NCBI GenBank assembly: GCA_003142185.1
Contig: PLOR01000076.1
Location: 1-61,461, forward strand
Source of the DNA: Bryobacterales bacterium
GTDB taxonomy: Bacteria > Acidobacteriota > Terriglobia > Bryobacterales > Bryobacteraceae
Direction of reading: 5' to 3'
DNA length: 61,461 nucleotides
In this document: piece after piece, positions 4,691-58,597 of the stretch
How the letters are laid out: every line of letters starts with the position of its first letter
How positions within the stretch are numbered: the first letter of the stretch is position 1
The notes under the pieces: model-generated
What the model was told of the DNA's origin: nothing
Seen by the model: the letters and a program-made list of their open reading frames with translations, nothing else
Databases searched by the model: none
Translations under genes and position numbers: made by a program

Positions 4691-4803
4691 GTGGCGCACG
4701 CACTCGTGCGTGCCGTGTCGAGACTCTTCTCGACATATCTTCGCTTCGCCTCGCCGTGCGTCGGCACGAGTGCCGACGCGGCACGCATGAGTGCGTGCGC
4801 CAC
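4691..4803 (+). repeat. 113-bp palindromic repeat, copy 1 (inverted partner at 6105-6217)
   Basis: The ends are inverted (GTGGCGCACGCACTCGTGCG against a near-match ending GTGCGTGCGCCAC). Two further perfect hairpins lie inside: GTCGAGA/TCTCGAC and CGTCGGCAC/GTGCCGACG. The element can therefore fold into a three-hairpin cruciform. Copy 2 is the same length, in opposite orientation, and differs at about 4 positions by hand alignment. The element is non-coding and looks like a mobile, MITE- or BIME-like repeat. Confidence 0.85.
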
Positions 4804-4821
4804 GGCAACAACCGCGGCGAT

Positions 4822-6060: not shown

Positions 6061-6104
6061 AATCGGCCTGAGGGCTCGTCAAGAAACGACCGTACCATTC
6101 GGGC

Positions 6105-6217
6105 GTGGCGCACGCACTCGTGCGTGTCGCGTCGGCACTCGTGCCGACGCCCGGCGAGGCGAAGCGAAGACATGTCGAGAAGAGTCTCGACACGGCACGC
6201 ACGAGTGCGTGCGCCAC
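6105..6217 (-). repeat. 113-bp palindromic repeat, copy 2, inverted relative to 4691-4803
   Basis: The reverse complement of this stretch aligns end to end with 4691-4803, with about 4 substitutions in 113 positions and no gaps. It lies just upstream of the LolC/E-type permease start. The two copies bracket that single gene in inverted orientation. Confidence 0.85.
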
Positions 6218-16460: not shown

Positions 16461-16681
16461 TAACTCAATTCTGATTTTTCCTTTACGACTTCCTTATGCC
16501 GCGCCAACTACTCTTTGTACGTGGAGGCACACATGCGGACTCAGGCTGGGCTGCACATCGATCCGGGAGCGCTCGAAGCGGGTCCGGGCGAACGCGGATT
16601 GGAGATCGTCGTGCCGTACACGGAATGGGCGCTGGCCGGTGCTGTGCTGCAGGGCGCCGCTGTGCTGGCGGCCGGGGCTGC
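16461..16681 (+). repeat. Direct repeat (copy 1) carrying leader, ribosome-binding site and first ~48 codons
   Basis: Matches 17976-18196 at a constant offset of 1515 bp. The block covers the upstream leader (TCAATTCTGAT, then TTTACGACTTCCTTATGCCG), GGAGG at 16523-16527, ATG 16533 and the first codons. Identity is near perfect through the leader and the first 15 codons, then drifts. Confidence 0.88.
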
Positions 16682-17975: not shown

Positions 17976-18196
17976 TAATTCAATTCTGATCTTTCCTTTA
18001 CGACTTCCTTATGCCGCGCCAACTACTCTTTGTACGTGGAGGCACACATGCGGACTCAGGCTGGGCTGCACATCGATCCGGGAGCGCTCGCAGCGGGACC
18101 GGGCGCACGCGAACTGGAAGTCGTCGTGCCGTACACGGAATGGGCGTTGGCCGAGGCGACGCTGCAGCGGGCCGCGGTGCTGGCGGCGGGGCTCAA
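17976..18196 (+). repeat. Direct repeat (copy 2) at the 5' end of the Usp-like gene
   Basis: Partner of 16461-16681. It carries the same leader and GGAGG (18038-18042), and the homology ends after codon 48, where the Usp-like reading frame continues and the porin frame diverges. Confidence 0.88.
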
Positions 18197-50369: not shown

Positions 50370-52811
50370 ATGCCCGAAAAGCCATACGATCACGCCAAAA
50401 TCGAACTTAAATGGTACCAGCGCTGGCAGAACGCCGATTTCTACCGGGCGGAAGAGAATTCCGCCAAGCCTAAATTCTATGTCTTAGAAATGCTGCCTTA
50501 CCCCAGCGGCACGCTGCACATAGGCCACATTCGCAACTATTCGATCGGTGATGCCCTGGCGCGCTACAAGTGGATGCGCGGTTTCAACGTGTTGCATCCC
50601 ATGGGTTGGGATGCGTTCGGATTGCCCGCCGAAAACGCCGCCATCGCCAACCGGCAGCCGCCGCGCCAATGGACGCTACAGAATATCCAGGCGATGAAGA
50701 AGACTCACCGCCGCTTCGCCTTCAGCTATGACTGGGACCGCGAAGTTTCCACCTGCGAGCCCGAGTATTACCGCTGGAACCAGTGGTTCTTCCTCAAGAT
50801 GCTGGAGCGCGGTCTGGCCTACCGCAAGAAAGCGCTGGTCAACTGGTGCCCGAAGTGCGCCACCGTGCTGGCCAATGAACAAGTGGTGGAAGGCTGCTGC
50901 TGGCGTCACGAAGATACCCCCGTCGAACAGCGCGCGCTGGAGCAGTGGTTCCTCAAGATTACCGCCTATGCCGACCAGTTGCTGGCCGATATGCGGCAGC
51001 TCGAAGACGGCTGGCCGGAGCGCGTGCTCATCATGCAGCGCAACTGGATCGGCCGCTCCGAGGGCGCCGAGATCGATTTCACCCTCGCCGGAACGGACCA
51101 GAAGATTCGCGTCTTCACCACTCGCGTGGACACCATCTACGGCGCCACCTGCGTGATCCTGGCGCCCGAGCATCCGCTCAATGCGCAACTGCTCGATCCG
51201 GCGGGTCAGGCGCGCGCCAAGGCCATGGTGGATGCGCGCGCCGGCCGCGACCCCGGCGATATCGAAAAGGAAGGCTTCTTCAGCGGCAGCTACGCCGTTA
51301 ATCCCTATAGCGACGAAAATGTGCCGATCTGGGTCGGCAACTTCGTTCTGATGGGTTACGGCACCGGCGCCATCATGGCCGTGCCCGCGCATGACGAGCG
51401 CGACTTCGAATTCTGCCGCAAGTATTCGATCGCCATCCGCCCGGTGATCCGTCCCGTGGGTGGCGAGCTGGGCGTCGAGCCGGGCCTGACAGTCGCGTTC
51501 ACCGAGGATGGGATCGTCGAACATACCGGCGACTGGTCCGGCCTAACGAGTGAGGAGGCCCGCGACAAGATGGCCGCTCATGCCAGGGTGAATGGCTTCG
51601 GCGACGCGGCCGTTACCTTCCGCATCAAGGACTGGGGCATCTCGCGCCAGCGCTATTGGGGCACGCCCATTCCGGTGATCTACTGCCCCGCCTGCGGTTT
51701 GGTCGCCGTGCCCGAAGACCAGCTCCCCGTGCGCTTGCCTGATCGTGTTGAAATCACCGGCGCCGGCCGCTCGCCGCTCGAGAACGTGCCCGAGTTCGTC
51801 AACGTCGCCTGTCCGAAATGCGGCGGCGCCGCACGGCGCGAGACCGATACCATGGACACCTTCATCGATTCGTCCTGGTATTTCTACCGCTATTGCGACC
51901 CGCACAACGACAAGGCTCCCTTCGATCCGGCTAAAATCGCCTATTGGTTCGAGATCGATCAATACATCGGCGGCGTGGAGCACGCCATTCTGCACCTGAT
52001 TTACTCGCGCTTCTTCACCAAGGTGATGCGCGATATCGGCCTGATCCGCAACAGCGAGCCCGTCCGCCGCCTGTTCACCCAGGGTATGGTGATCGCCGAA
52101 GGCGCCAAGATGTCGAAATCCAAAGGCAACGTGGTGGGCGCCGACCTGCTGGCTGAAAAATACGGCGCCGATACCGCGCGCATGTTCGTGCTCTTCGCCG
52201 CGCCGCCCGAAAAGGAAGTCGATTGGCGCTGGGAAGGCGCCGACGGCATTTACCGCTTCCTCGGCCGCGTCTACCGCTTCGCCACGCGCCGCATCGGAAC
52301 CGCTGCGCCCGAAGCAGGCGCCGCCGACCGCCAGGTGCTGCGCAAACTCCACCAGTGCCTCCAGAAGATTACCGAAGATTTCGAGTCGCGCTGGCACTTC
52401 AACACCTGCATCGCCAGCATCATGGAACTGGTGAACGTGCTCTATGCCGAAGAGGAGAACATCGGCTCCGCGGTGTTGAACGACGTCCTGGTTAAGCTGG
52501 CGCTGATGCTCGCCCCGTTCGCGCCGTACCTGGCGCAGGAGATCTGGGAGGAGCTTGGTCACGACGGCCCGGTTTTCCGCCAGCAGTGGCCCGCCTACGA
52601 TCCCGAACTCGCCAAGCCCGAAGAAGCCGAGATCGTCGTCCAGGTCAACGGCAAACTCCGCAGCCGCGTTTACGCCCCGTTCGGCACGCCCCAAGACGCG
52701 CTGGAAAAGCTCGCCCTGGCCGACCCGAAAACCCAGCAGTCCATCGCCGCGAAACAGATCGTCCGCATCATCGCCGTCCCCGACAAGCTGGTAAACATCG
52801 TCGTCAAGTGA
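50370..52811 (+). CDS. leuS: Leucine-tRNA ligase
   Basis: 813 residues, class I. The HIGH motif is at HIGHIRN (about 50); the connective and editing domains follow (TRVDTIYGAT, MAVPAHDERDFEF); KMSKSKGN is at about 580. C-terminal anticodon-binding and tail domains end KLRSRVYAPFGTPQDALEKLALADPK...VPDKLVNIVVK. ATG 50370 begins MPEKPYDHAKIELKWYQRW. The last 61 codons have a second, diverged copy at 55150-55338, 2.5 kb downstream, on the same strand. Confidence 0.97.
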   Translation: MPEKPYDHAKIELKWYQRWQNADFYRAEENSAKPKFYVLEMLPYPSGTLHIGHIRNYSIGDALARYKWMRGFNVLHPMGWDAFGLPAENAAIANRQPPRQWTLQNIQAMKKTHRRFAFSYDWDREVSTCEPEYYRWNQWFFLKMLERGLAYRKKALVNWCPKCATVLANEQVVEGCCWRHEDTPVEQRALEQWFLKITAYADQLLADMRQLEDGWPERVLIMQRNWIGRSEGAEIDFTLAGTDQKIRVFTTRVDTIYGATCVILAPEHPLNAQLLDPAGQARAKAMVDARAGRDPGDIEKEGFFSGSYAVNPYSDENVPIWVGNFVLMGYGTGAIMAVPAHDERDFEFCRKYSIAIRPVIRPVGGELGVEPGLTVAFTEDGIVEHTGDWSGLTSEEARDKMAAHARVNGFGDAAVTFRIKDWGISRQRYWGTPIPVIYCPACGLVAVPEDQLPVRLPDRVEITGAGRSPLENVPEFVNVACPKCGGAARRETDTMDTFIDSSWYFYRYCDPHNDKAPFDPAKIAYWFEIDQYIGGVEHAILHLIYSRFFTKVMRDIGLIRNSEPVRRLFTQGMVIAEGAKMSKSKGNVVGADLLAEKYGADTARMFVLFAAPPEKEVDWRWEGADGIYRFLGRVYRFATRRIGTAAPEAGAADRQVLRKLHQCLQKITEDFESRWHFNTCIASIMELVNVLYAEEENIGSAVLNDVLVKLALMLAPFAPYLAQEIWEELGHDGPVFRQQWPAYDPELAKPEEAEIVVQVNGKLRSRVYAPFGTPQDALEKLALADPKTQQSIAAKQIVRIIAVPDKLVNIVVK

Positions 52812-52813
52812 GC
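52623..52813 (+). repeat. leuS 3' end, copy A of a 191-bp direct repeat
   Basis: Codons from GAAGCCGAG to the stop and two bases beyond match 55150-55340 with no gaps; hand comparison finds about 27 mismatches in 191, many at third positions. The repeat flanks the low-GC cassette. Confidence 0.9.
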
Positions 52814-52936
52814 CGAATCTCGTGCAACCCAGCTCAGCGGACTGCGCGTGATACCAGCCAAGTGGCATGGCTCTGGGCCGAGCCGGATTCCGTAAGCTCG
52901 ACGGCTCATGGCAAATCAAAGGTCACGCACGGTCGT

Positions 52937-53407
52937 TCACCTGCTGGCGTGAATTCGCACAGACATTCTCTGGGCCAGTCTCACCCGGAACATCTCCTTC
53001 ACCTTCGGGCTCGGCGCGTCCACAAATTCACCCCCGGCTCTGCAGCAGACCTCTGTGTGGGCGTAGCAGCACTCAAGCGGCTTATGGATGGGCTCGAACT
53101 GAAATGCTCTGCCATCCTGGCCATCTATCGGCGTCGGGAGGTCGGTTGATGAACATTCCAGAACTCCCCATCCATCTTGCAGCTTCTGGCCGTCACAACA
53201 ATCCGAGTGCAAAACGTCTTCCGGCCTGCTGTACTTTTCGCGATTGAACGACTGGCGCGGGAACCTGAAGGCCGCCGGAAGTAACCGCTGGTTTTGAAAG
53301 TGTTCCGCCCTGTAGCGCCTGAACAGAAGTTCCCCATTCGTGAATACTTGATCCTCGGGATCGCCATTTCGGTACCGAGGATGTCCGGGCTCACCCGAGC
53401 AGCACAT
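52937..53407 (-). CDS. Hypothetical protein, last gene of the TIGR04255 cassette
   Basis: 156 residues. The block GELLFRRYRAEHFQNQRLLPAAFRFPRQSFNREKYSRPEDVL is clearly a conserved protein module, followed by GWGVLECSS and EPIHKPLECCYAHTEVC. Eight cysteines are present, including CC pairs at both ends, which could bind metal. No domain recognised. ATG 53407 lies 5 bp after the stop of the preceding gene. Composition is poorer in GC than leuS. Confidence 0.75.
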   Translation of the reverse strand: MCCSGEPGHPRYRNGDPEDQVFTNGELLFRRYRAEHFQNQRLLPAAFRFPRQSFNREKYSRPEDVLHSDCCDGQKLQDGWGVLECSSTDLPTPIDGQDGRAFQFEPIHKPLECCYAHTEVCCRAGGEFVDAPSPKVKEMFRVRLAQRMSVRIHASR

Positions 53408-53412
53408 AGCTT

Positions 53413-53913
53413 TCAGCCGAGGTACGTCAAGATCCTGCCAGCCACGTCTGCTCGGGAAATGTCGCGGCCGATCTCAAGAACCTCTGCGTTGCCATTGTGA
53501 TCGTACATCACGAGTGTCTGAGACCCCTGATTGTAGCTTTCGATATAGACAGTCCGATGGCCGGTCATGAAGTAAATCGAAATACCACCCTCGGCAGATG
53601 GGACGATTGTGGACGGCAGGATCAGAGCGCCGGCCAGTTCCTCCAGGATCTCTTTTGATGCACGAACCGCATTGGCGTTTGGAGGCTCTGCTCCATATGA
53701 GTCCCAGTCCCTTTCCATGCTGGAAATCCGGTCCAGTGCTCCTTCGGCATCGATGAGCCCATACTTGATGGTCAAGAATGTGCTTTGCTCCAGCCTGCGC
53801 AACCAGTCATCCCGGAGTTCACTGGTCCGCTGGTTGTAGCTTGGCGTCTCGACGCGGTGAACTGCCGGTCCAAATCGATCAGGCCGGAACGGTGGCAGCG
53901 GGACTGCAGGCAT
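53413..53913 (-). CDS. Hypothetical protein, third gene of the TIGR04255 cassette
   Basis: 166 residues, unrecognised. A helical N-terminal half (SELRDDWLRRLEQSTFLTIKYGLIDAEGALDRISSMERDWDSYGAEPPNANAVRASKEILEEL) is followed by a beta-rich C-terminal half (TIVPSAEGGISIYFMTGHRTVYIESYNQGSQTLVMYDHNGNAEVLEI). RDWDSYGAEPPN is a motif I associate with uncharacterised proteins linked to mobile genes. Its ATG overlaps the TIGR04255 stop (TAATG), so it is coupled. Confidence 0.75.
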   Translation of the reverse strand: MPAVPLPPFRPDRFGPAVHRVETPSYNQRTSELRDDWLRRLEQSTFLTIKYGLIDAEGALDRISSMERDWDSYGAEPPNANAVRASKEILEELAGALILPSTIVPSAEGGISIYFMTGHRTVYIESYNQGSQTLVMYDHNGNAEVLEIGRDISRADVAGRILTYLG

Positions 53914-54674
53914 TAGCTGATTAACTCCCTCGTGTTATTGGTAATACAGCCTTCAAAGATCAAGTTCTTTCGCAAGCGCAGCGCCTCCAACACGTTCCAT
54001 ATTTCGTCGTCCGACTCGAGTTTGAGCCCCTGCTTGAACACATCAATATCGAGCACCACCGACGCGACGTCTGGGCTGGACGGAGGAACCATCGCCTCGT
54101 TGAGGATCAGCATGGCGCCTAGATCCTCTTGCGGAATCTGAACTTGTAGGAAGAACCCTGCCAACAGCTGAGGTAGGTCCGACGATATCTCCGGGTAGAG
54201 GCGGATGAAGTCCCGAAAATCCCGTATCGGCAGCGGAAGATCCAGTTGGTTCACGTACCGGAGCCCAATACGGACAACCGGGAGCGCACCAACGATCTGC
54301 CGGTATGATTCCCAAAGCGTCTTCGCTTCGTTTCGAAGCTGCTTCCACGTTTGATATGGAGCCAGCCTGCTGAAGGCGAAGCCGTTCACCTTGAACTGTA
54401 CGACATGCTTCCCTTCGCCTCCGACGAACGCATAGCCCATATCGTCCTGCTTCGCCGTCGCTGTGAGTACACCCCCCTCAAGCTGTCCTCGGAGCTGGCC
54501 CATCATCACCTTTCGGCGTTCCGCATAGCCCTTGGGCAGCGAGATATCAACCTTCTCAAAGTTCGCCAGGCTGAGCGATGGCGACTCGACTTGGATATCA
54601 ATGATCGCCTCTTTGATTGGGGCCTTGTCGTAGTGCCTGTCCTTCAGCCACGACATCCACTTTTGAGTCGCCAT
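53913..54674 (-). CDS. TIGR04255 family protein
   Basis: 253 residues. The family pattern is unmistakable: YDKAPIKEAIIDIQV near the start, HVVQFKVNGFAFSRLAPYQTWKQL, VRIGLRYVNQLDLPLPI and VASVVLDIDVF. TIGR04255 proteins are sporadically distributed, uncharacterised and often found in variable regions. ATG 54674 lies 13 bp after the stop of the 59-residue gene. It is likely the core of this four-gene cassette. Confidence 0.85.
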   Translation of the reverse strand: MATQKWMSWLKDRHYDKAPIKEAIIDIQVESPSLSLANFEKVDISLPKGYAERRKVMMGQLRGQLEGGVLTATAKQDDMGYAFVGGEGKHVVQFKVNGFAFSRLAPYQTWKQLRNEAKTLWESYRQIVGALPVVRIGLRYVNQLDLPLPIRDFRDFIRLYPEISSDLPQLLAGFFLQVQIPQEDLGAMLILNEAMVPPSSPDVASVVLDIDVFKQGLKLESDDEIWNVLEALRLRKNLIFEGCITNNTRELIS

Positions 54675-54687
54675 GTCTCCAACGTTA

Positions 54688-54867
54688 TCATTCTGGCGTG
54701 CGCTGGGCCGCTTTCCTGATGCGGGCCGCTACAGCCTTGCGGGCAAGCTCACTTCGCTGTTCGGGCGTGAGTCCGCCCATCCGTTTCTTGCCACCGATCT
54801 TACCACCCCGAGATCCCTGTTCCACGAAGAAATCCCGAACATTCTTTGGTAGTTTTGTTCCGGCCAC
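54688..54867 (-). CDS. 59-residue basic protein with GGKIGG motif, first gene of the cassette
   Basis: GTG 54867 to TGA, below usual length cut-offs. The sequence LPKNVRDFFVEQGSRGGKIGG, then KKRMGGLTPEQRSELARKAV and AARIRKAAQ resembles short basic proteins with a G-G-K-x-G-G turn and an LTPEQRSELARKAxxARW helix, which are common near mobile genes. An in-frame stop lies just upstream of the GTG, so the N-terminus is well defined. It may be a small nucleic-acid-binding regulator of the cassette; that is a guess. Confidence 0.7.
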   Translation of the reverse strand: MAGTKLPKNVRDFFVEQGSRGGKIGGKKRMGGLTPEQRSELARKAVAARIRKAAQRTPE

Positions 54868-55149
54868 CCTAATTCATCCTAACCCCCTCTGGATCATTTG
54901 ACAAGCCGAGAATGTGCCAGCCCAGAATATGCCCCGTGCACCCGCTGAGCCGTGCAAGTTCAAGAAGAAAACGCGTTAGCCTAGGTTTTCCCGGCAACGC
55001 GGGAAGAGTGTCTGCTACCCCGCTTCGATCACGCCCTGCTCAACCCGTTGGAACTTAGGCTCAAGCTCGACAAGCATGCCACGCAGCGCGCCATCACCGC
55101 GAGACCAAACATCGGCGGCTGACGCATCGACACCAGCTCTCCAGCACCT
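54868..55149. other. Gene-poor right part of the leuS-bounded cassette
   Basis: About 280 bp with no convincing gene. On the minus strand a tail (GMLVELEPKFQRVEQG) near 55020-55080 reads like a protein end but has no start of its own, and may be a gene remnant. The sequence then meets the leuS 3' copy. Confidence 0.4.
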
Positions 55150-55338
55150 GAAGCCGAGATCGTCGTCCAGGTCAACGGCAAACTCCGCAGTCGCGTCTAC
55201 GCCGAGTTCGGCACGCCCAAAGACGAGCTCGAGAAGCTCGCTCTGGCCGACCCCAAGGTTCAGCAAGGTATCGCCGGCAAACAGGTGGTGCGGATCGTCA
55301 CCGTCCCCGACAAGCTGGTGAACATCGTCGTCAAGTGA
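55150..55338 (+). pseudogene. Remnant of leuS 3' end (copy B)
   Basis: Keeps the LeuRS reading frame for the last 62 codons: EIVVQVNGKLRSRVYAEFGTP, KDELEKLALADPKVQQGIAG, KQVVRIVTVPDKLVNIVVK, then TGA. No upstream part of leuS precedes it and no start is available, so it is not expressed as a LeuRS. Copy B is the version one would expect of a typical LeuRS tail (GTPKDELEKLALADPKVQ). Confidence 0.88.
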
Positions 55339-55367
55339 GCGCGGGCAGACCGCCGCGCGCGCCCGCC

Positions 55368-56366
55368 TTAAACCTCCGCCGGCGCGCCCGTTTTGGCCAT
55401 GGCCAGTAACTTGTCGTCGAACCCGAAGCCGGCCGTGCGCGGTTTGTGATTGCGCGCGTACCAGCGGTAGGTTTCTTTGAGGGCCGCCTCGAACGCCGTG
55501 CCTTTCACTTTCAACATGCGGCTGACCTTGCCGATGTTCATCGTGATCGGCGGCACATCCAGGTATTCGCCGAAATAGTAAGGCTCCTCGAAGGCGTTGC
55601 CGCCGGCCTGCTGAATCAGGTCTCGCGGCACGCGGGCCAGCGTGGCCTCGGTGTTGGCGGCCTTGGCCAGCCGCTCCACCAGTTCCACCTGGGTGAGCGG
55701 CTTCGAGTCGCCGATGTTGAAGGCCTCGCCTTCGGCGCGCGGTTCGATCATGGCTCGCAGCATCGCCGCCACCAGGTCGCCCACATAAACGAACTGCATC
55801 AGCCGGTAGCCGTCGCCGGGGATGACGATGGGGCGGCCGGCGCGCAGCCGATCCCAGAAGAATTGCTCGCGGTAGAACGGGTTGTTGGGTCCGTACACGA
55901 ACGGCGGGCGGAAGGTCACCACTGGCAAGCCGTGCTGCGCGCGCATGCGGAACAGCAGCCGCTCGGTGGAAGCCTTGTGGCGGATGTATGGGTTCGCGTG
56001 CGAATCCGGCGCCAGCGGATCGCTTTCCTTGTGGTTCAGCCCGTCGCCGTAAGCCGCCACGCTGGACATGAAAATGTAACGGCTGAGCCGGCCGCCGCAC
56101 GCCTGTACGGTGGCTTCGACCTGCGCCGCCGTGGTGCCCCGTTCCCAATCGTAGACGTTGTCGAACACCACTTCGAAGCGGCGGCCGCTCAGCGCCTCGC
56201 GCACGGATTCCGCGTCGTTGCGGTCGGCCACCATGTTCTCCACCCGCCGCCCGAAATCGTGCTTCGGCTTGCGGTGCAGAACCGCGACGTCATGCCCCGC
56301 CTTGACCAACTCCTCGACCAGGGAGCGGCCGATGAAGAGCGTGCCGCCGATGACCAGTACTTTCAT
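55368..56366 (-). CDS. NAD-dependent epimerase/dehydratase (extended SDR)
   Basis: 332 residues. The Rossmann motif is GGTLFIGRSLVEEL (a GxxxxG variant), the catalytic Tyr-Lys appears as NPYIRHKASTERLL (Y-x3-K), with an SSVAAYG serine. Other hallmarks are RPPFVYGPNN and FNIGDSKPLTQVELVERLA. Resembles acidobacterial NDP-sugar or isoflavone-reductase-like SDRs. It is 91 bp downstream of ino1 on the same strand. Confidence 0.85.
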   Translation of the reverse strand: MKVLVIGGTLFIGRSLVEELVKAGHDVAVLHRKPKHDFGRRVENMVADRNDAESVREALSGRRFEVVFDNVYDWERGTTAAQVEATVQACGGRLSRYIFMSSVAAYGDGLNHKESDPLAPDSHANPYIRHKASTERLLFRMRAQHGLPVVTFRPPFVYGPNNPFYREQFFWDRLRAGRPIVIPGDGYRLMQFVYVGDLVAAMLRAMIEPRAEGEAFNIGDSKPLTQVELVERLAKAANTEATLARVPRDLIQQAGGNAFEEPYYFGEYLDVPPITMNIGKVSRMLKVKGTAFEAALKETYRWYARNHKPRTAGFGFDDKLLAMAKTGAPAEV

Positions 56367-56457: not shown

Positions 56458-57774
56458 TCAGTCGTAATATTCCAGACCCAAGTGCGTGATCAGGTCCTCG
56501 CCCCGCATCCAACGCAGCGTGTTTTTCAGTTTCATGAGCTGGATGAACACGTCGTGCTCGGGGTAGACCTCGGGCGCGTGCATGGGGGCTTTGAAATAAA
56601 ACGACAGCCATTCCTGGATACCGCGCATCCCAGCGCGCTGGGCCAGGTCCATGAACAGCACGATATCGAGCACCAGCGGCGCGGCCAGGATGGAATCGCG
56701 GCACAGGAAGTTTACCTTGATCTGCATCGGGTATCCCAGCCAGCCGAAAATGTCGATGTTGTCCCAGCCTTCCTTGGCGTCGCCGCGAGGCGGGTAATAT
56801 TCGATGCGCACCTTGTGATACACGTTCCCGTACAGGTCCGGGTACAGTTGCTTCTGCAAAATGTATTCGAGCGCCGAGGACTTGCTCACTTCCTTGGACC
56901 GGAACGAGCCTGGGTCGTCCAGCACCTCGCCGTCGCGGTTGCCCAGAATGTTGGTCGAGAACCAGCCGTTGACGCCCAGCAGGCGCGATTTCAAGCCGGG
57001 CGCGATCAGCGTCTTCATGAATGTCTGCCCGCTCTTGTAATCCTTGCCCGCCAGCGGCAAGCTGCGGTCGCGCGCCAGCTCGAGCAGCGCCGGCATGTCG
57101 GTGGTCATATGCGGCGCCCCGTTGGCATACGGAACGCCCGATTTGAGCGCCGCGTAGGCGTAGATCTGGCTCGGCGAAATCTCCGGATCGTTCTCCCGCA
57201 AACCGCGTTCGAAACGCTCCAGGCTCGAATGGACCTCCGCCGCTTCGTGATAGACTTCCGTCGACCCGCACCAGATCATCGTCGTGCGCGAGACTTTGGT
57301 CCTCTTCTGGAACTGGCGGATGTCTTCCATCACCCCCTCGGCGTAATCCATCTTGCTGCCGCCGGCTTTGACGTTGGGGCCGTTCAGGCGCTTGACGAAT
57401 TTCTGGTCGAACACCGCCTGCATCGGTTCAATCGCTTCGAGCGGCTCTTTCAGCGATTGAAGAAGCGGCATTTCCAGCACACCCGCCTTGACTGCGGCTT
57501 CGTAAGCGTTGTCTTCGAAAATATCCCAAGTGGCGATTTCCAGGTCTTCCACGTTGGCCAGCGGCACGAAATCGCGGATGGCGGGACTGCGCCCTTCTGT
57601 CCGCTTTCCGAGTCGTACCGTGCCGAGTTGCGTCAGGGATCCGATTGGCTTCCCCAGGCCCCGCTTGATGGCTTCCAGACCGGCGATGAACGTCGTCGTC
57701 ACGGCGCCCATGCCGGGAATCAGCACACCGAGTTTACCCTCGGCGGGCGCGATGCGGACGTCTTGATTAGGCAA
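56458..57774 (-). CDS. ino1: Inositol-3-phosphate synthase
   Basis: 438 residues. Converts glucose 6-phosphate to inositol 3-phosphate using NAD. Recognised by GVLIPGMGAVTTTFIAG, NGPNVKAGGSK, WCGSTEVYHEAAEVHSSLERFE, SYxNGAPHMTTD-like block YANGAPHMTTD, DYKSGQTFMKTLIAPGLKSRLLGVNGWFSTNILGNRDG and SKEVSKSS. AAGGAGAG precedes ATG 57774. In this phylum inositol may feed phosphoinositide lipids or compatible solutes. It is divergent from the LytTR regulator, with a shared -10 region. Confidence 0.95.
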   Translation of the reverse strand: MPNQDVRIAPAEGKLGVLIPGMGAVTTTFIAGLEAIKRGLGKPIGSLTQLGTVRLGKRTEGRSPAIRDFVPLANVEDLEIATWDIFEDNAYEAAVKAGVLEMPLLQSLKEPLEAIEPMQAVFDQKFVKRLNGPNVKAGGSKMDYAEGVMEDIRQFQKRTKVSRTTMIWCGSTEVYHEAAEVHSSLERFERGLRENDPEISPSQIYAYAALKSGVPYANGAPHMTTDMPALLELARDRSLPLAGKDYKSGQTFMKTLIAPGLKSRLLGVNGWFSTNILGNRDGEVLDDPGSFRSKEVSKSSALEYILQKQLYPDLYGNVYHKVRIEYYPPRGDAKEGWDNIDIFGWLGYPMQIKVNFLCRDSILAAPLVLDIVLFMDLAQRAGMRGIQEWLSFYFKAPMHAPEVYPEHDVFIQLMKLKNTLRWMRGEDLITHLGLEYYD

Positions 57775-57802
57775 GTTTTACTCTCCTTAAAAGGTGAAAT
57801 GC

Positions 57803-57809
57803 TATAATA
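57803..57809. promoter_or_regulatory. Overlapping divergent -10 elements (ino1 and LytTR regulator)
   Basis: TATAATA: on the plus strand TATAAT (with a TGC extension, 57800-57808) for the response regulator; on the minus strand TATTAT for ino1. Initiation at normal distance gives an ino1 leader of about 20 bases and a regulator mRNA starting within a few bases of its ATG. Confidence 0.5.
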
Positions 57810-57817
57810 CCAACTCG

Positions 57818-58597
57818 ATGCGCGAACGTGCGACGGCCACCTTGGCGACAATTGTCGTCGATGACGAGCAACTGGCCCGCGAAGAGCTTGCTTTCCTCCT
57901 CAAGGATTTCCCGGAGATAGAGGTTATCGGCACTGGTTCCAATGGGTTAGAGGCGCTAAACCTGATCGAGAAGCTGGAGCCGGAAGTGGTTTTCATGGAC
58001 GTCAACATGCCCGGATTGGACGGCCTGGGCGTGGCGCAACGGCTGCGGGAAAAAGGCATCGACCCGCCGCATTTCATTTTTGTGACAGCCTACGACCAGT
58101 ATGCCGTGGAGGCTTTCCGGCTCGAGGCGATGGACTATCTGCTCAAGCCGCTCGACCGCGGGCGGCTGGCCGAGACCATCGACCGCGCGCGGCGAGTCAT
58201 CCTAGAGAAGAAATCGAGTGAGCCGGCCGCCGCCCGCGCCGCCGCTCCGGTCGCCACGCCTCGCACCAAGCTGATGGTCAAGGCCGCCAACCGGAATTTC
58301 ATCGTGGATGCGAGCGACGTCATCTACGCCACCATCGATAGCGGCCTGATCACGCTCGTCACCACTTCCTTCGAGGGCCAATCGAACTACCGCACCATCG
58401 AAGACCTGCAGGCCAACCTGGACCGCGAGCTTTTCTGGCGCGTCCACCGCTCCTACCTGGTGAACATCAACCGCATCAAGGAAGTGGTGCCTTGGTTCAA
58501 ATCGAGCTATCAGCTCCGCATGGACGATAAGAAGCACACCGAAATCCCCGTGAGCCGCGTGCAAACCCGGCGGCTGCGGGAGTTGTTCAAGCTGTAG
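57818..58597 (+). CDS. LytTR-type response regulator
   Basis: 259 residues. Receiver domain: VVDDEQ (15-16), phosphorylation site Asp61 in VVFMDVNMPGLDGL, Thr90 in VTAYDQYAVEAF and Lys110 in LLKPLDRGRL. A linker (about 125-145, Ala-rich) joins it to a LytTR DNA-binding domain (FIVDASDVIYATIDSGLITLVT, FWRVHRSYLVNINRIKEVVPWF). No partner histidine kinase is adjacent. ATG 57818 is taken as start; the upstream in-frame start at 57794 would lie within the -10 region. Confidence 0.93.
   Translation: MRERATATLATIVVDDEQLAREELAFLLKDFPEIEVIGTGSNGLEALNLIEKLEPEVVFMDVNMPGLDGLGVAQRLREKGIDPPHFIFVTAYDQYAVEAFRLEAMDYLLKPLDRGRLAETIDRARRVILEKKSSEPAAARAAAPVATPRTKLMVKAANRNFIVDASDVIYATIDSGLITLVTTSFEGQSNYRTIEDLQANLDRELFWRVHRSYLVNINRIKEVVPWFKSSYQLRMDDKKHTEIPVSRVQTRRLRELFKL

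Follow-up and report, generated by a model that had tools for sequence, protein, structure and literature searches.

A duplicated leuS 3′ end flanks a low-GC TIGR04255 cassette in a Bryobacterales genome: a candidate case of gene-tail displacement by one-sided homologous integration

C-terminal displacement by incoming DNA is known from rhs and type VI secretion system (T6SS) effector loci (PMC5361080; PMC3240628), where incoming DNA is anchored in a conserved part of the gene and supplies a new end, the former 3′ part staying behind downstream, and where serial events give arrays. Homology-facilitated illegitimate recombination is the putative mechanism given for T6SS effector arrays and, by reference, for rhs genes (PMC5361080). 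A second kind of precedent comes from integrative and conjugative elements (ICEs), which integrate in lysS, guaA and rpsI, and from e14, which occupies icd and leaves icdC as a displaced C-terminus (PMC4701971; PMC4444293). In addition, small variable segments of bacterial genomes have been ascribed to illegitimate recombination (PMC2884548). Here we analyse a window of 61,461 bp, which is one whole contig (PLOR01000076.1) of the 119-contig assembly of a Bryobacterales bacterium, and in which the 3′ end of leuS, the essential gene for leucyl-tRNA synthetase (LeuRS), is repeated behind a cassette that encodes a TIGR04255 family protein.

The full-length leuS (50370–52811, plus strand; TIGR00396 leuS_bact, 1010.8 bits, E 4.7e-304) ends in tail copy A (52623–52813), which recurs on the same strand as copy B (55150–55340), ~2.5 kb downstream and with no leuS body ahead of it. 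As the first-pass annotation of the window had described, the alignment is gapless over 191 bp with 27 mismatches (85.9% identity); it scores 224 bits, against 38.3 bits for the best repeat in 10 block-shuffled windows, and its homology stops at leuS codon 752 on the left and just beyond the stop codon on the right. The gene keeps its full tail, and a truncated second tail lies behind foreign-looking DNA; the window contains no tRNA, and leuS has no second body elsewhere in the genome. The DNA between the tails (52814–55149) is indeed lower in GC than its flanks (56.7% vs. 63.9% in the 10 kb to the left and 60.9% to the right); only 3 of 296 same-size sliding windows are as low, the cassette itself among them, and by tetranucleotide distance it ranks 4 of 296. 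Third-position GC (GC3) is 0.63–0.70 in three cassette genes vs. 0.76–0.86 in the seven flanking genes measured. We regard the leuS tail repeated around other DNA as a real feature, confirmed by these measurements.

The locus resembles rhs and T6SS loci in its layout of anchor, new end and downstream remnant; unlike there, an essential housekeeping gene acts as the anchor, its new tail appears equivalent in function, and separate genes make up the cargo (a TIGR04255 row here, a PIN toxin pair or an enzyme elsewhere). It shares with e14 and the ICEs a gene 3′ end apparently restored by inserted DNA (PMC4444293; PMC4701971), with e14 the retention of the original gene end as a remnant (PMC4444293), and with ICEs a tRNA synthetase gene among the targets (PMC4701971). 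However, e14 and the ICEs encode an integrase, whereas none was found in the leuS cassette, and the leuS cases described below have different joints. Like the small variable segments of PMC2884548, the inserts are short, strain-variable and mostly unexplained by known mobile elements, but those segments are mostly flanked by repeats of <30 bp, whereas here gene ends of ~95–800 bp flank the segment.

The two tails are not evenly diverged. The leading 41 bp (52623–52663, plus strand, the inner edge of copy A) are identical between the copies (0/41 mismatches, ~4.7 expected, P ~0.01), and all 27 mismatches fall in the remaining 150 bp (18% different). These 41 bp change at 0.62 times the rate of the rest of the tail in 44 other tail pairs, and A–B was the sole pair among the 45 with zero differences in them. 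An identity of this length is too long for tails 14% apart, which argues that A and B are not an evenly diverged old duplicate. Against G001, the one congener found (189 nt compared), copy B shows 27 nucleotide and 5 amino acid differences, and copy A 34 and 12. With 27 nucleotide differences but only 5 at the protein level, the displaced copy B retains the look of coding sequence under constraint, and it probably belonged to a functional leuS until recently. We therefore consider it very improbable that the locus is an old tandem leuS duplication in which the second copy decayed and other DNA was inserted later: small-scale duplications are reported to be widespread in the related Solibacter (PMC3174227), but the constrained copy B, the mosaic identity and the missing second leuS body disfavour simple duplication and decay, and two tail matches occur in only 5 of 257 genomes of the order, none of which has two full leuS genes (one of the five, G062, being ambiguous).

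The best reading of the locus, in our judgement, is gene-tail displacement through one-sided homologous integration (homology-facilitated illegitimate recombination), which we put at about even odds (a probability of roughly 0.5). Incoming DNA, assumed to enter by transformation, would have held a leuS end from a relative, linked to other DNA, and would have paired with the resident leuS. Strand exchange inside the tail would then make leuS run on into the tail of the donor and, behind it, the donor's cassette. The opposite end of the donor fragment would have joined the resident leuS illegitimately, ~190 bp before the stop codon, so that the resident tail (copy B) came to lie beyond the cassette. 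Were this joint 41 bp upstream of the point of exchange, the stretch from one to the other would be a recent duplicate and for that reason identical. LeuRS would stay whole, so that such an event would be tolerated in an essential gene. One-sided integration explains the intact leuS, its foreign-looking neighbour, the displaced tail, the 41-bp block, the lack of an integrase and the differing joints and cargos. The first-pass annotation had proposed a mobile cassette integrated at the leuS 3′ end or, as a second alternative, capture of the DNA by homologous recombination. The foreign composition, the full leuS tail, a homologue elsewhere in a relative and the different cargo behind leuS in other genomes lend this interpretation partial support; the recombination alternative fits better than a site-specific element, given three leuS inserts in which no integrase was seen and three different tail starts.

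Support comes from the mosaic repeat and the constrained copy B, and also from a cassette homologue at another locus and from recurrence. The stretch 52936–54824 is ~79% identical to contig C327 of genome G079 (bog_159), whose leuS lies on a different contig, C208; the cassette is not tied to the leuS locus. The leuS tail was found in 233 of the 257 genomes, with two matches in five (G000, G070, G128, G062 and G232). In G128 the last 129 bp of leuS are repeated with 4 mismatches and 1,717 bp between, the insert holding a gene for a metallo-beta-lactamase (MBL)-fold enzyme (Lactamase_B/Alkyl_sulf_dimr); in G070, ~95 bp of the tail are repeated with 6 mismatches around a PF01850 PIN toxin and an RHH_1 (ribbon-helix-helix) antitoxin. 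Both genomes belong to genera other than that of the window, and the window, G128 and G070 share an intact leuS, foreign DNA and a truncated copy of the same gene end downstream; genomes with different cargo between leuS and its tail copy, named in advance as supporting evidence, were thus found. The other two are ambiguous: the second tail in G062 is cut by a contig end, and G232 seems to have a single leuS divided between contig ends. A family-wide search with tail A, in which the relatives include Bryobacterales metagenome-assembled genomes (MAGs), matched 215 of 237 genomes and raised two further flags, at contig ends (G190) and at one gene in two frames (G252).

Comparable arrangements occur elsewhere in the window's own genome. 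The tail of purD (100 bp, 88% identity) is repeated behind purD around a PIN-domain toxin (L117:8831–9854; C109:68831–69854), preceded by a small ORF that matched no family, and 795 bp made up of a histidine kinase 3′ end and a response regulator occur twice (94.8% identity) with 2.8 kb of other DNA between (L128:4979–9393, contig C3). A survey of gene-end repeats over 1,195,903 of the 5,791,462 bases of the genome returned 14 rows, four of which read as gene-end duplications around other DNA, namely leuS, purD, the kinase/regulator pair and one 5′ end, of what we take to be a universal-stress-like gene. Seven rows read as within-gene or short intergenic repeats (C62, C84, C7, C10, C11, C26 and C109:41869), and the classification leaves out three (C14 twice and C109:142878). 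Control surveys gave 0 rows in 400 kb of G009, 6 in 300 kb of G160 and 1 in 100 kb of G028; these are unclassified rows, from which we claim no comparison of rates. The mosaic pattern seen at the window's leuS was not seen at purD.

The TIGR04255 cargo bears on the main rival explanation, a site-specific element with the leuS 3′ end for its attachment site, bringing a replacement tail and depending on an integrase that was lost or acts in trans; the 41 bp would then be the attachment core, copy A the element's tail and copy B the resident's. We scanned named genomes for TIGR04255 relatives and used the best 80 of 115 encoding stretches, which come from many phyla; the protein also occurs in three plasmid records and in no phage record. 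Direct repeats span 5 of the 60 TIGR04255 loci with enough flank vs. 5 of 525 control points (Fisher P 0.0016, indicative only, the control points overlapping and the five including the window and L192, a tmRNA case). A protein-level repeat test returned 9 of 67 loci, three at tRNA or tmRNA ends (L192, L193 and L229) and two that look like paralogues (L168 and L211). Besides the window, three genomes hold TIGR04255 genes between duplicated protein-gene ends. In bog_159 the gene lies between duplicated 5′ ends of a UxuA-like gene, the repeated part being the end far from the cassette; in palsa_243 (L209:9237–14465) three copies of the 5′ end of a DUF58-like gene enclose two different cargos, which resembles tandem accretion, as if by stepwise arrivals at one site; and in a planctomycete it lies between 146-bp repeats of a small ORF's 5′ end. 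Other relatives lie between duplicated tmRNA ends with a confirmed Phage_integrase gene (L192), between duplicated tRNA-Phe ends (L220), and between duplicated tmRNA ends with a recombinase motif nearby (L229). At L193:2271–4648, a TIGR04255–h166–h156 row like the window's occupies a unit of 2.3 kb bounded by perfect 46-bp copies of a tRNA-Arg 3′ end, apparently a very small element at a tRNA site in which no integrase is recognisable; a 44-aa recombinase-like piece there gave no Phage_integrase match, and we claim no integrase relic.

These tRNA and tmRNA cases suggest that the family has used integrases, so that a lost or in-trans integrase at leuS is possible, and 16 Phage_integrase matches lie on other contigs of the window's genome; the earlier statement that the window lacks an integrase concerns a single contig and does not extend to the rest of the genome. 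Two further points fit a site-specific element, in addition to the accretion-like array of palsa_243. In each of the eight cases scored (L192, L193, L220, L229, the window, L154, L182 and L209, the two paralogue-like loci being left out), it is the 3′ side of the TIGR04255 gene that faces the intact gene (two-sided binomial P 0.008, and P 0.125 for the four protein-gene cases alone). Moreover, ICEs are known to integrate in housekeeping 3′ ends, the streptococcal ones in that of lysS (PMC4701971), so a synthetase gene end is a less unusual attachment site than had been proposed, and e14 likewise leaves a displaced C-terminus, icdC (PMC4444293). On the other side, no integrase matched the four scanned cassette proteins or was seen in the translated gaps, and none of the three leuS inserts showed a recombinase or integrase. 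The leuS tail copies of 191, 129 and ~95 bp have three different start points, which argues against one shared crossover site and weakens the candidate of a leuS-specific integrase; the 41-bp block is not contained in the G128 or G070 copies, so that the same core was not reused. The protein-gene targets also vary between genomes, and the recombinase-like scrap at L193 is no Phage_integrase match. We hold a site-specific element to be unlikely.

An artefact that joined two strain haplotypes at a shared k-mer appears improbable. The assembly is fragmented, contigs of several relatives end inside the leuS tail, and a 41-bp identity is what a k-mer joint would give; however, there is no N at the joint, unique cassette DNA separates the tails, and the arrangement recurs in G070 and G128 with other tail lengths. 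The two sides of the contig are also similarly close to congener G001 (leuS 91% over residues 1–544, epimerase-like gene 89%), which speaks against a chimeric contig.

Several observations weigh against one-sided integration or fit its main rival as well. The 41-bp block sits where the core of a site-specific element would lie, an observation that one-sided integration also explains, and the four tRNA/tmRNA cases (L192, L193, L220 and L229) point to integrases in the history of this cargo family. At purD the copies lack an extended stretch of identity at the inner edge, and neither leans towards G001 (12 differences in 100 positions between A and B, 20 between A and G001, 21 between B and G001). 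No clear microhomology is seen at 55149/55150, where the resident sequence to the left is not available for comparison, and competence is represented by one ComEC-family match only, which E. coli has as well. Each of the three genomes with the leuS arrangement is assembled in many contigs (119, 160 and 710), the window's being a MAG, and a cassette-free conspecific was not among the genomes compared. The distance of copy A from G001 is about what the region's rate predicts (G004, misaligned, was left out of this comparison), so that A may be native too and B cannot be called native with confidence; the expectation that a cassette-free relative's tail would match copy B is borne out as a lean at most. 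A sharp drop in similarity to G001 inside leuS, which would mark the upstream crossover, is absent once the regional rate is allowed for. Polarity from gene order failed likewise: the epimerase-like gene was near leuS in 0 of 10 relatives' loci, and donor and resident tails are for this reason indistinguishable by gene order; nor were the MBL-fold gene of G128 and the fragment beyond it near leuS in 13 other genomes of its genus, some of them cut by contig ends.

Notwithstanding, we tentatively raise a wider and somewhat doubtful idea, that selfish or defence-like modules (the TIGR04255 row, PIN toxin pairs) might spread recombinase-free among related soil bacteria by travelling with a housekeeping-gene end that serves as landing pad and repair patch, with leuS and purD as reusable entry points and displaced tails as scars of successive arrivals. 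The similar insertions in two other genera suggest that small modules can land at housekeeping gene ends without carrying an integrase. If this is true, conserved ends of essential genes would be general entry points for small integrase-free modules, displaced gene tails would give a simple sequence signature for counting such events, uncultured genomes included, and there would be a route to asking how toxin-antitoxin and TIGR04255 modules without mobility genes scatter so widely. C-terminal displacement recurring at housekeeping genes with toxin pairs or the TIGR04255 row as cargo seems to be new: no paper on housekeeping-gene tail displacement was found among the matches listed, which is weak evidence of novelty, searches on combined terms for leuS or synthetase integration sites gave no match, and TIGR04255 was not found by that name in the literature searched.

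Within the cassette, 125 bp separate leuS from a minus-strand row of genes, which number four, as first annotated, if a 57-aa ORF is counted and three otherwise. The third gene of the row, h156 (52937–53407), has same-order homologues in other Acidobacteriota and no family match in Pfam, NCBIfam or PADLOC; the second, h166 (53413–53913), has a weak match to part of the PADLOC profile PDC-M32A (E 1.3e-5), and no other cassette protein matched a described defence or toxin-antitoxin system. The TIGR04255 gene (53913–54674; 119.3 bits, cut-off 30) yields a confident AlphaFold model (pLDDT 91.5), whose best Foldseek matches have E ~1e-3 and whose best VIA scores are Z 8.6 to McsB and ~7 to TATA-binding proteins; such scores are near the range expected without true relatives, and we draw no function from them. 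The 57-aa ORF (54697–54867) has a homologue in the G079 cassette (L058; 79% over 42 aa). The row TIGR04255–h166–h156 recurs in other Acidobacteriota, and a second, diverged set lies on contig C109 of the window's genome. Between the row and copy B lies a second truncated gene tail, the degraded 3′ end of a carboxypeptidase-regulatory-like gene (54986–55122, plus strand, ending in a stop codon); its 54986–55101 part is 76% identical in DNA to genome G239 (L235), where the counterpart 133-aa ORF matches PF13620.

To the right of copy B, the epimerase-like gene (55368–56366, minus strand) forms the edge of a block common to relatives, which continues with the gene at 56458–57774 and, where the locus reaches it, a LytTR gene (57794–58597). 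It stands beside the 56458–57774 homologue in five genomes (G001, G021, G047, G103 and G002; L304–L308), and no leuS tail match occurs in those loci within flanks of 1.5 kb (the G103 flank ends at the gene). Two other repeats lie in the window. In a 219-bp direct repeat (16461–16679 and 17976–18193, 91%), a small gene's 5′ end and the region upstream of it recur ahead of a BBP2 porin gene (PF07642, E 5e-70), with which the repeat is in frame; the small gene precedes potassium-transport-like genes, presumably kdp. Finally, a 114-bp inverted repeat (4691–4804 and 6104–6217) has arms that are 96.5% identical and 1.3 kb apart.

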